From positions 186,001-250,000 of the forward strand of contig JAENYP010000001.1 in assembly GCA_016841725.1 (NCBI GenBank): 64,000 bases of DNA, in the 5' to 3' direction. Positions 18,340 through 63,245 of the stretch are shown one piece after another. The DNA comes from Thermincola carboxydiphila. GTDB lineage: Bacteria > Bacillota > Thermincolia > Thermincolales > UBA2595. Position 1 is the stretch's first letter. Every line of letters starts with the position of its first letter. The notes under the pieces were generated by a model. It did not search any database, was not told the DNA's origin, and saw only the letters and a program-made list of their open reading frames with translations. A program made the translations under genes and the position numbers.

Positions 18340-18407
18340 AAGGTACTATAAACTAACGTACTCTCTCGGTGTCCACCTCCCTTTCAATCGAAGGTATAGC
18401 GGTGTAC

Positions 18408-18573
18408 CTTAGATAGGCAGGTCTCCTGACTCCAGTTCATCGTCCCCCGCGCCTTCCCGGGCATGAGCCCAGTGGCATATAGTGCGGGTTTCTCCCTGTT
18501 ACAGTGGCGGGACCGTGCTGGATTTGCACCAGCTTCCCTTTTCAACCCTGTTACGGGTCACCTATCTGCTAAA
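18408..18573 (-). ncRNA. cobalamin riboswitch (AdoCbl type)
   Basis: The minus strand shows the B12 box GTCAGGAGACCTGCC near the 3' end, the GCTGGTGCAAATCCAGC hairpin, CGGTCCCGCCACTGTAA, and outer arms CAGATAGG / CCTATCTA that close the aptamer. These are the conserved elements of the cobalamin riboswitch. It precedes cbiM, with a promoter upstream and a terminator downstream, so ligand binding should cause termination. Confidence 0.95.
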
Positions 18574-18597
18574 TTCTATTCGTATTTAATTTATCTT

Positions 18598-59597: not shown

Positions 59598-60077
59598 GTC
59601 AGGTTTATATATTTTGGAAGTGAAAGGCAGTTTACTACTGCACATAATACTTATTCTTCACAAAGTTATGATTTCCTGCTATACTAAGATGTGTCCAAAA
59701 ACTTTTTATTGCACATTCAATTAATGCTGTGATAGTATTTCCTGAGTATTCAATGCCTTTATAAAACCCTATTAATTACGCCGCTCCTAAACCTACTATG
59801 GATAGTACTAATATGAGTTTTTTTATTTTTTAGAAAATTTAAACTTCCTTAGTCTAGCAGGAATTACCACAATAAAGAAGAATATTATGTTTATACTTAT
59901 CGAATATTTCTTTATTTGTCGTTTTGAGCTTTAAATCACAAACACGAATCTATGAAAGGAGGGCGAGGAGACCGGTTAACCAGCCATCATTTTATCCCGG
60001 ACCGACCAAATGGATATTATCGTATTCAGGAGAATCCGGGGCAGCAAAATATAACAAAATCTAAGGAGGCAGAAAAA
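59598..60077 (+). other. AT-rich leader region of the rhodanese lipoprotein gene
   Basis: No gene is seen. 59600-59945 is AT-rich and mostly featureless. From 59955, AAAGGAGGGCGAGGAG is a strong Shine-Dalgarno-like stretch not followed by a good frame. CCCGGA / TCCGGG (59996-60040) can pair around a 33-base loop. The true ribosome binding site is at 60063-60068. It may hold a structured leader. Confidence 0.45.
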
Positions 60078-61127
60078 ATGTTAAAAAGAAAAGGGCTTTA
60101 TTCTGTAATGGCACTGCTTATCGCCCTCAGCCTGATGGTAACACTGGCAGGGTGCGGTGGCAGCGAGAAACCGGAAAGTGAGCCTGCAAAAGATCCGGTT
60201 GAAAACACTCAACCCACTGAAGAACAAGTAGTTGAATCTTCCGCAATTATTGAGGCAGTCGCTGCTTACTTGGGCTCAGACCCAGCTCCAGCTCCAACCA
60301 TCAGCGCTGAAGAGGTTGACGAGAAAGTTGTTAAGGGCGGCGATACGGGTTATTTCCTCCTCAGCATCCAAAAGCCTGAAGATTTTGCCAAAGGCCATGT
60401 TCCGGGCGCAATTAATATTCCCTATGCTCAAATTGCCAAAGCTGAAAGCCTGGCCCAGCTTCCCAAGGATAAAAAGATTGTTGTTATCTGCTACACCGGC
60501 CATACCGCCAGCTATACCTCAATGTTCCTTAACGAACTTGGTTATGAGGCATATGCAATGAAGATGGGTATGAACGGCTGGAACGAAGAGTCTGCCGGAT
60601 TAGGTGCGGTTGTACCTTACGCCGGATCAGCCGGTCTTGATGTGAGCACCGAAGCAGTTGAAGCTCAGGCTGTTAATGAAATCCCTGAAGTTAACACAGG
60701 CGCTCAGACTCCTGAAGAAATCATTATCGCAGCTACCGATGCCTACCTGTCCGCAGGCAGAGGTCCTACCGTAAGTCCTCAGGAAATTGATGAAAAAGTT
60801 ATCAAGGGTGGAGATGACAGCTACTTCCTCCTCAGCATTCAGAAGCCTGAAGACTACGCCAAAGGCCATGTTCCGGGAGCAATTAATATCCCTTATGGCG
60901 CTATCGCCAAGGAAGAAAACCTGAAGAAACTTCCTACCGATAAGAAGATTGTTGTTATCTGCTACACCGGTCATACCGCCAGCTATACTTCAATGTTCCT
61001 CAACCAGCTTGGTTATGAATCTTATGTCCTCAAGTTCGGTACTATGGGCTGGAATGACAAAACTGAAGGAATGGGCGCTGTTAAAGCCTTTACCAAGTCC
61101 CCCGGATTTGAAACAGTCGCCAACTAG
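60078..61127 (+). CDS. lipoprotein with two nearly identical rhodanese domains
   Basis: The ATG follows AAGGAGG by ten bases. The 349-residue protein has a lipobox (LAGC) near residue 27, an acidic linker, and two rhodanese domains ending in CYTGHTASYTSMF, so both carry the catalytic cysteine loop CYTGHT. Rhodaneses move sulfane sulfur. The duplicated halves are 471 bases (157 codons) apart and nearly identical at DNA level, which points to a recent tandem duplication. It is outside the membrane, which is unusual. Confidence 0.85.
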   Translation: MLKRKGLYSVMALLIALSLMVTLAGCGGSEKPESEPAKDPVENTQPTEEQVVESSAIIEAVAAYLGSDPAPAPTISAEEVDEKVVKGGDTGYFLLSIQKPEDFAKGHVPGAINIPYAQIAKAESLAQLPKDKKIVVICYTGHTASYTSMFLNELGYEAYAMKMGMNGWNEESAGLGAVVPYAGSAGLDVSTEAVEAQAVNEIPEVNTGAQTPEEIIIAATDAYLSAGRGPTVSPQEIDEKVIKGGDDSYFLLSIQKPEDYAKGHVPGAINIPYGAIAKEENLKKLPTDKKIVVICYTGHTASYTSMFLNQLGYESYVLKFGTMGWNDKTEGMGAVKAFTKSPGFETVAN

Positions 61128-61152: not shown

Positions 61153-61340
61153 GGGTGTCCCATAATGGGGCACCCTTTCTATTTAGCCTATGAAATTGAA
61201 GGGAGGGGCAGATATAATTCCTTCACGATGGCAACGATTCCGCTTGTTTGCGGCTCCCGCTTACGCGGATTGCCGACAAGCGGACATCAGTCTCATCGTT
61301 CCGGAACCATATCTGCCCCTCCCTAATTTATAGGCCTAAT
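61153..61340. repeat. palindromic unit, copy 1 of a tandem pair
   Basis: It begins with a terminator-like hairpin (GGGTGTCCC / GGGGCACCC) and continues as a long imperfect palindrome with arms GGGAGGGGCAGATAT (61201-61215) and ATATCTGCCCCTCCC (61309-61323) plus TAGCCTATGAAATT / AATTTATAGGCCTA at the outside. The hairpin may also end the rhodanese gene. A second, diverged unit follows. Confidence 0.8.
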
Positions 61341-61345
61341 CCAAA

Positions 61346-61525
61346 ACGGGTGTCCCAAATGGGGCACCCGCTCTATAATTACAAGGCTTTACTATTTTTC
61401 ACCTGTGTTGTTGAATGGGGGTAGATGTGTTCCGCGAAGCGGGAGCTGCTGCCGGCGGAGACGTAGCCCGCCGGAGGAATACATCTACTCCTATCCAGAT
61501 TACAATTGAAAAATAATAAGCCTAA
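61346..61525. repeat. palindromic unit, copy 2 of a tandem pair
   Basis: It repeats the order of copy 1: hairpin CGGGTGTCCC / GGGGCACCCG, then arms GGGGGTAGATGTGTTCC and GGAATACATCTACTCC, with outer AAGGCTTTACTATTTTTCA and its near complement. The arms are homologous to those of copy 1 but differ at several positions. Confidence 0.78.
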
Positions 61526-61528
61526 GTT

Positions 61529-61915
61529 TTAGAGCCCCAGCAACTTCCGCACAACCGGGATGTCTGCCGGGGCAAAATCATATTTTACCATTTCCTCAGG
61601 GGCAGCCCACTTCCAGTCCTGGCAGTCAATACAGTCCGGTATGCCGCCTTTTAAGCTGCAGAGGTAGCAGAGCAGGATGACCTGCCTGTCTTCATAGATA
61701 TGGGACACAACCTTGAAAATTTCTCCCACTTCCACAGTAATATCAAGCTCTTCCTTAAGTTCTCTCACGAGGCAGGCTTCGGGGTCTTCACCCTGTTCTA
61801 CCTTACCTCCGGGAAACTCCCACTTCATCTCCTGGTGCGAGCCTTTTTTCCTTTGGGCAATGAGGAACTTACCGTCACTTTTTATGATTGCTGCTGTGAC
61901 AACCAGAATTTTCAT
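61529..61915 (-). CDS. Nudix hydrolase, MutT-like
   Basis: This 128-residue protein has the Nudix box GGKVEQGEDPEACLVRELKEEL (residues ~36-57) and the MutT-type start VTAAIIKSDGKFLIAQR. It probably hydrolyses oxidised nucleotide triphosphates such as 8-oxo-dGTP, but other substrates fit. The ribosome binding site is weak (GGAGA, far upstream). It follows the HD-GYP gene by 26 bases. Confidence 0.87.
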   Translation of the reverse strand: MKILVVTAAIIKSDGKFLIAQRKKGSHQEMKWEFPGGKVEQGEDPEACLVRELKEELDITVEVGEIFKVVSHIYEDRQVILLCYLCSLKGGIPDCIDCQDWKWAAPEEMVKYDFAPADIPVVRKLLGL

Positions 61916-61941: not shown

Positions 61942-63075
61942 CTATGAATTTACAACCTTTTTCCCCTGGTTATACACCACCCCAAGTTTATCAGCAAATC
62001 CACCATCATCCTGCAGTTCCCTGACTATACTCAGACCGGTTTCTTTAACCAGTTCAATTTCCTGTACATGCTTAGGACCGGCAGGAGATTTATTGCTGTC
62101 GGTGAGTATCTTCACCACCGGCTTATCCGGGTGGATGCGCCTGTTGCATACGACAAGCCCGATCTCACCTGAGCTTAGCTCCACTAACGAACCGGCAGCA
62201 AACAGGGCGATATTTAGCAGGAAAAGTTCCGTTAGTGAGCTGTCTATTTTCAACCCTGCTTCCTCTTTCATCAATTCTATTGCTTCACGCGTACTGTAAG
62301 CCTTCCGGTGTTTCCGCTCGCTGGTAAGGGCATCAAACAGGTCAGCAACGGCTGCAATCCTGGCAAATTCACAGATGTCGGTATTCTTTAAGGCTCTCGG
62401 GTATCCAGTCCCATCTATGCGCTCATGATGCTGGAAAGCAACGTGTGCCGCCAGCAGGTTAACATCTTTCTGATCTCTCAGGAGGTTAAATCCTTTTATG
62501 CTGTGCTGCTGCATTTGATTGAATTCTTCAGGTGACAGCCTGCCCGGTTTTTCCACCACCTTGGGATCAACATACATGGACCCGATATCATGCATAACTG
62601 CCCCCACCCCCAGGTCCCGGAGCTGAACCTCGTTATAGTTTAAGGCCAGACCAATCCGCAGTGACAATATACATACATTCAGGCAGTGGGCATACAGGTA
62701 ACTGTCATAAGAACGAATATCACAAAATTCAAAAAGCAGCTGCCTATTCTGCAGAATCTCGTCAGTCAGCCTGTTTACCAGGTCCTTAACCAGTTTGGTA
62801 TTAATCTTTTGGTATTTTTTAGCCTCTTCGAAAACCCTTCTCAATGTTACAATCCCGTCAATTCTTGTACTGTCTGATACTATATCGGGGAACTCGATGT
62901 CCCGGCAAAAACTGTCAATTATAATGATTGTCGGGAAACCCAGTGCCTGCAGCCTTTTGGCATAGGCGGGGTTAAGTTCACTCCCGGCAGAAAGCAAGAC
63001 ACTCCCATTGGCTGAATAAAGACTTTTCCCCAAAATCATACCGGACTGCAGTTTGCTAACAGGTAACCTGCGCAT
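61942..63075 (-). CDS. HD-GYP c-di-GMP phosphodiesterase under riboswitch control
   Basis: From the ATG at 63075 behind GAGGGGG this is 377 residues. It has the same N-terminal domain as the paralogue at 20247-21305, then the HD pair (AVMHDIGSMYV, near residue 163) and HHERIDGTGYP (~217-227), a complete signature. It should hydrolyse c-di-GMP. A GEMM-I riboswitch and a terminator precede it, giving direct feedback from its substrate. Confidence 0.92.
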   Translation of the reverse strand: MRRLPVSKLQSGMILGKSLYSANGSVLLSAGSELNPAYAKRLQALGFPTIIIIDSFCRDIEFPDIVSDSTRIDGIVTLRRVFEEAKKYQKINTKLVKDLVNRLTDEILQNRQLLFEFCDIRSYDSYLYAHCLNVCILSLRIGLALNYNEVQLRDLGVGAVMHDIGSMYVDPKVVEKPGRLSPEEFNQMQQHSIKGFNLLRDQKDVNLLAAHVAFQHHERIDGTGYPRALKNTDICEFARIAAVADLFDALTSERKHRKAYSTREAIELMKEEAGLKIDSSLTELFLLNIALFAAGSLVELSSGEIGLVVCNRRIHPDKPVVKILTDSNKSPAGPKHVQEIELVKETGLSIVRELQDDGGFADKLGVVYNQGKKVVNS

Positions 63076-63111
63076 AGACCTGCCCCCTCTCATTTCGATT
63101 CTGTTATCTTA

Positions 63112-63153: not shown

Positions 63154-63160
63154 TCAGTTT

Positions 63161-63245
63161 TTCGGCAGCCTGGCTGTCATAGCAAAAGCTTTAGACCCAT
63201 GGCTTTGCGTCCCTAACTTTCGGTAGGTTTGCCTTTACGGTGAAA
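63161..63245 (-). ncRNA. c-di-GMP riboswitch, GEMM-I type
   Basis: The minus strand has AAAGGCAAACC, CGAAAG, GGGACGCAAAGCC, GGTCTAA and ATGACAGCCAGGCTGCC in order. These are the conserved blocks of GEMM-I, including the tetraloop and the base triples around c-di-GMP. It precedes an HD-GYP phosphodiesterase gene. Confidence 0.94.

Follow-up and report, generated by a model that had tools for sequence, protein, structure and literature searches.

The described insertion sequences that most resemble the elements treated here are those of the IS1182 family. IS1272, a member of that family, inserts without sequence specificity into intergenic stem-loops and terminators, sits just downstream of genes and has terminal inverted repeats; the target stem-loop is removed and no target duplication is made (PMC5678879, PMC4923244). 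A different outcome, duplication of the entire stem-loop after attack at its 5' feet, appears in PMC5678879 as a sketch only ('pathway b'), and in the open-access literature we found hairpin target duplication nowhere outside the IS1272 papers. The Thermincola elements share with IS1272 the targets, the location and the terminal inverted repeats, and one relative has IS1182 transposase remnants inside ends of one of their two kinds (A-type). Unlike IS1272, which encodes its transposase, they are gene-less, with a covarying hairpin body, and the copies of the other kind (B-type) duplicate the whole target hairpin instead of removing it.

Bacterial MITEs are likewise short, gene-less and multicopy, with terminal inverted repeats and target duplication, and are found as internal-deletion derivatives beside transposase remnants; the Thermincola element differs in that a single hairpin makes up nearly all of it, its internal loops being conserved and its arms compensated and peculiar to each copy, and in that the target it duplicates is itself an 18-27 bp hairpin. 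The bcr1 repeats of the Bacillus cereus group (of a different lineage, and likened here by description only) are also dispersed repeats confined to their lineage; they are of comparable size, have a conserved fold and show signs of mobility, and hairpin target duplication is not known for bcr1. REP elements are not known to lie between divergent genes, where the Thermincola family is absent as well. They too are numerous intergenic palindromes located behind genes but, according to PMC3733652, they are 20-40 bp long with a GTAG or CGTC tag, whereas the Thermincola elements measure 130-280 bp, have terminal repeats and share a core of 129 positions with other conserved motifs. Integron attC sites stand in cassette arrays beside an integrase; the Thermincola copies are single or paired and are scattered over the whole genome.

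The rhodanese-NUDIX gap

The window (the whole stretch of 64,000 nucleotides that was analysed, G000:C25:186001-250000) comes from the 3.88 Mb genome of Thermincola carboxydiphila (G000). In it, a rhodanese-domain gene (59952-61127, +; Pfam PF00581, in two stretches) converges on a NUDIX hydrolase gene (61529-61915, -; Pfam PF00293), and the whole gap that follows the 3' end of the former is taken up by an alternation of short hairpins and long palindromes, T1-A-T2-B, with no gene inside A or B. T1 (GGGTGTCCC-ATAAT-GGGGCACCC; 61153-61175) is followed by a T-rich stretch. The long hairpin body of A (61184-61335, -) takes in a copy-specific outer stem around a core match of the family's covariance model (R1) at 61197-61327 on the minus strand. 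T2 (61347-61370), likewise a GGGTGTCCC/GGGGCACCC hairpin, is a direct repeat of T1, at a spacing of 194 and with 72% identity. B, a B-type member (61385-61522, +; core match 61410-61499), is eroded: it lacks terminal repeats and the 5' internal part is gone. Folding is far better than that of shuffled sequence in both halves (T1+A, z -10.9; T2+B, z -8.4), and in neither did any of 200 shuffles do as well; the alternation of hairpin and long palindrome noticed in the initial annotation is real.

That annotation went on to read the alternation as a tandem duplication of a ~185-base composite unit, with A and B as copies in the same order. The order of the parts and the likeness of T1 to T2 would fit such an event. 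In local alignment, however, A+ against B+ scores 15, which is chance (shuffled mean 14.7), whereas A- against B+ scores 30, a value reached in none of 300 shuffles; the family model agrees, matching A on the minus strand (136.5 bits) and B on the plus strand (51.5 bits). A and B are diverged members of one dispersed family in inverse orientation, closer relatives of both are found elsewhere in the genome, and T1 and T2 act as inverted ends of A. On the orientation test and the genome-wide family we have dropped tandem duplication, to which we give practically no credence.

T1 is the outer end of element A, a terminal inverted repeat hairpin: A-type copies at other loci are bounded by the same hairpin, which stands inverted there. 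It probably doubles as a terminator. T1 and T2 together are the A-type ends in the window. We also considered T1 and T2 as a target duplication made by A, a reading weakened by the likeness of T among A copies across loci and genera, and by its inverted orientation there.

Regarding the neighbours, the rhodanese-domain gene encodes a putative lipoprotein whose two rhodanese domains resemble each other, and the gene has an internal 140-bp repeat (70% identical). A c-di-GMP-I-GGC riboswitch (63160-63242, -; 72.6 bits) lies directly upstream of an HD-domain gene (61942-63093, -), and a cobalamin riboswitch is found at 18399-18580 of the window (-; 127 bits).

A dispersed family and its fold

A blastn search of G000 with the region gives 69 matches, and the covariance model, built from 26 copies, finds 68 distinct places (raw hits number 98-104, both strands of strong palindromes being counted). 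Copies are present in all ten genomes of the order, the relatives of Thermincola; the same model, with stricter filters than within the order, finds none in the other 388 genomes of the phylum sample. Rfam 15 yields no match at the gathering score and nothing credible at permissive thresholds, and no paper on palindromes of Thermincola was found in the open-access literature. This family of small, gene-less mobile hairpin DNA elements has apparently gone undescribed so far. Complete B-type copies are ~210 bp in length (longer with a nested module), so that in shortness, lack of coding sequence and copy number the family is MITE-like.

In the B orientation, the common plan has an arm (S1) ending in TTCC, an internal loop GGAA/TGGA and a helix S2, followed inward by a loop around AGTCTGAYGTC/GARWYGTWGC, a helix S3 with a GTA bulge, and an apical stem. 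S2 occurs as GGCGG/CCGCC, CGACG/CGTCG, CGATG/CATCG, GAACG/CGTTC and GGATG/CATCC. When the structure, itself drawn from the same sequences, is applied to the aligned copies, 95.2% of cells are paired, and 33 of the 46 pairs have changed on both sides. On each of the five measures the real alignment exceeds all of 500 shuffles, and far lower values come from slid versions of the structure. The initial annotation had proposed that pairing outlives divergence and may be selected, and had named an absence of further copies together with non-compensatory changes as what would speak against it. There are 68 places, most changes preserve pairs, and the selection proposed on pairing finds support in a covariation that exceeds both controls.

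The internal loops stay unpaired, and mismatched loops are conserved in nearly all copies. In an alignment of 52 G000 copies fitted to the model, pairing extends to 97% of cells, and on one strand there are 124 G-U cells to 19 A-C cells; an unfitted alignment has 60 against 6. The excess of G-U over A-C implies that one strand matters in single-stranded form, as RNA or as DNA. These observations bear on the proposal that there is no selection at all and that recombination in and between palindromes, by template switching and module exchange, merely copies changes from arm to arm. Recombination does also shape the arms, as module swapping and in-place inversion between orthologs demonstrate, and in two copies (L107 and L108) the GGAA/TGGA loop has been converted into perfect pairs. 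As the whole explanation it is nevertheless very improbable: the mismatched loops persist, and the G-U over A-C asymmetry requires discrimination of single strands.

Comparison of orthologous sites in two species shows in-place inversion of a hairpin at L164 versus L202, and at T2 of the window (61347-61370) versus L060. Some elements, B-type or A-type, carry in their inner loop a further palindrome, the third such module (CCCCAATCCGT...ACGGATTGGGG), which also has a GTA-type bulge. This module occurs at L199, L204, L216, L255, L263 and L279 of the relative G002 and at L161 and L171 of G000; it is present in one species and missing from the orthologous copy of the other (L199 versus L148, for example).

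Between orthologous sites, the element cores are 91.7% identical, the flanks 90.6% and coding DNA 92.0%; cores diverge like flanks, and strong purifying selection on element sequence is not seen in this comparison. One-sided changes at paired positions of orthologous copies (mapped by plain blastn) preserve pairing 16 times out of 28, or 15 times out of 20 once a decayed copy (L162) and one case unpaired on both sides are set aside; the expected share is 28% if all pairs start as Watson-Crick and 42% if the start is mixed. The smaller set was picked after seeing the data and is only suggestive of selection on the fold in resident copies.

Placement relative to genes rests on a simple codon-usage gene finder, with which 65 copies can be classified: the neighbouring genes are convergent for 21 and tandem for 44, and no copy lies in a divergent gap or inside a gene. 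The median distance from the preceding stop codon is ~50 bp. Absence from divergent gaps is not chance, because about a fifth (~20%) of sampled intergenic bases are divergent, copies not being fully independent of each other in this statistic. The 3' position, the total absence from divergent gaps and the T-rich stretch after T1 would all suit a REP/BIME-like or terminator role, in which the palindromes persist chiefly because they end transcription or stabilise mRNA. Insertion beside an existing terminator hairpin, with duplication of that hairpin, explains the position without invoking function, and many of the long bodies, as we read their sequences, have T on the 5' side and A on the 3' side, the opposite of a terminator. 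We regard a main role of this kind as quite improbable.

For 46 of the 65 copies the B-orientation strand runs antisense to the gene before it (P 0.001), and this bears on a different proposal, that the family serves the host as a structured RNA or as a hairpin of single-stranded DNA (for instance as a 3'-UTR element or a small RNA), spread by past transposition and with its fold now selected. Strong covariation, conserved unpaired loops, the G-U over A-C asymmetry in both alignments and the 15 of 20 pair-keeping changes would be in keeping with it. The antisense orientation of the favoured strand, cores as diverged as their flanks, S3 modules that are swapped, collapsed or inverted between orthologs, and the lack of an Rfam match tell against it, and we consider it unlikely.

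Ends, duplicated hairpins and transposase remnants

A-type and B-type copies have the hairpin body in common and differ in their ends. B-type copies have MITE-like terminal inverted repeats (CAGRCTGYTGACAAAG ... TTTGTCAATAAGCTG), and two-ended copies run from CAGRCTGYTGACAAAG ... to TTTGTCAATAAGCT. Of the 11 two-ended B-type copies left after filtering, nine have one locus-specific terminator hairpin directly repeated at their two flanks; flank repeats score 26-40 within their own locus, and a mean of 12.0 (maximum 26) between loci. Thirty stretches of G002, taken by gene-end anchors, were compared with their G000 counterparts, and most sites are filled in both. One clean empty site was found: where G002 (L210) has one hairpin, GGAGGACCAATACTGGTCCTCC, G000 (L161) has hairpin-element-hairpin. 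For the B-type, then, there are nine target duplications and one empty site, as expected of a MITE, and a hairpin at both flanks with one at the empty site, as expected of IS1182-like insertion at stem-loops and terminators. The shared transposition mechanism that the initial annotation had offered beside selection gains support from the terminal inverted repeats, the terminator-hairpin duplications and the empty site in a relative.

The A-type copies end in inverted GGGRSTGTCYCATAAGT repeats, and these terminal hairpins are inverted and have a sequence shared across loci and genera. At the site orthologous to that of the window, T1-A-T2 is still present in G002, where T2 is reverse-complemented and B has collapsed further. 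G001, of the same genus, has one T-type palindrome only, which is either the pre-insertion state or a collapsed element.

An 840-bp gene-less element of G009 (L268, G009:C5) has a B-type left end and long inverted repeats of its own, and is flanked on both sides by AAGGGAGCCTGTTRAGGCTCCCTT, a duplicated terminator hairpin; contigs break inside copies related to it (L278 and L281). Plain terminators of the form AGGCTGTTGACAAA-TCAACAGCC (L232, L258, L266 and L272) look like two joined B-type ends, and may be fully collapsed elements or the source of B-type ends.

IS1182 transposase fragments lie just inside an A-type end followed by an A hairpin at three loci of G007 (L097, L099 and L328), matching NF033551 at E values of 4e-8, 2e-11 and 3e-9; a fourth locus, L098, has the same upstream region and runs off the end of its contig. 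A search with the N-terminal fragment finds no such gene in G000, and searches of G000 and its relatives find no intact insertion sequence with A-type ends; coding for the transposase is confined to these fragments in the decayed longer forms of relatives. Pattern searches of the same genomes for an insertion sequence with B-type ends yield nothing beyond miniature copies, chance matches within coding regions, plain terminators and the G009 element. Of a possible autonomous partner, only the remnants inside the A-type ends of G007 were found, and for the B-type none.

Probable terminator-targeting miniature elements

We think it probable that A and B are two insertions of terminator-targeting, IS1182-type, non-autonomous miniature elements with a multi-helix hairpin body. 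The family would insert at intrinsic terminators behind genes, its body being a long hairpin with conserved internal loops. Element A would extend from 61153 to 61370, bounded by T1 and T2 as inverted GGG-TGTCCCATAA hairpins, and B (61385-61522) would be an older, eroded insertion in the opposite orientation. The engine is most likely an IS1182-family transposase that recognises stem-loops; we infer that it moves these copies, with less assurance for the B-type, whose ends differ, that recognition is of the hairpin body, and that there is a cruciform step. If an extruded terminator hairpin were attacked at its 5' feet, a copy of it would end up on either side, and B-type copies do look like this sketched outcome; attack elsewhere would replace the hairpin, the known mode of IS1272 and a plausible one for the A-type. 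A preference for hairpins as targets would further explain why some palindromic modules lie within the loops of others and are polymorphic among orthologs. Against the explanation stand the failure to find an intact transposase with these ends, the difference between A-type and B-type ends despite a common body, the single clean empty site, the absence of target duplication in IS1272 itself, and the ambiguity of the G001 hairpin.

A more far-reaching version, which we hold to be possible though doubtful, is that of hairpin transposons that target hairpins, duplicate whole terminators and nest in one another's loops, with a strand-specific, single-stranded fold that stays under selection once they have inserted; they would then be a partly domesticated mobile structured nucleic acid confined to one bacterial order. 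As terminator-dwelling miniature elements they are of a familiar kind; the covarying multi-helix body and the duplication of a whole terminator are unusual. About nine natural duplications and one empty site allow the stem-loop loss and stem-loop duplication outcomes to be compared. The family adds a strongly covarying structure without an Rfam entry, at ~68 places in one genome, and shows how mobile hairpins can multiply and rebuild the terminators behind genes.
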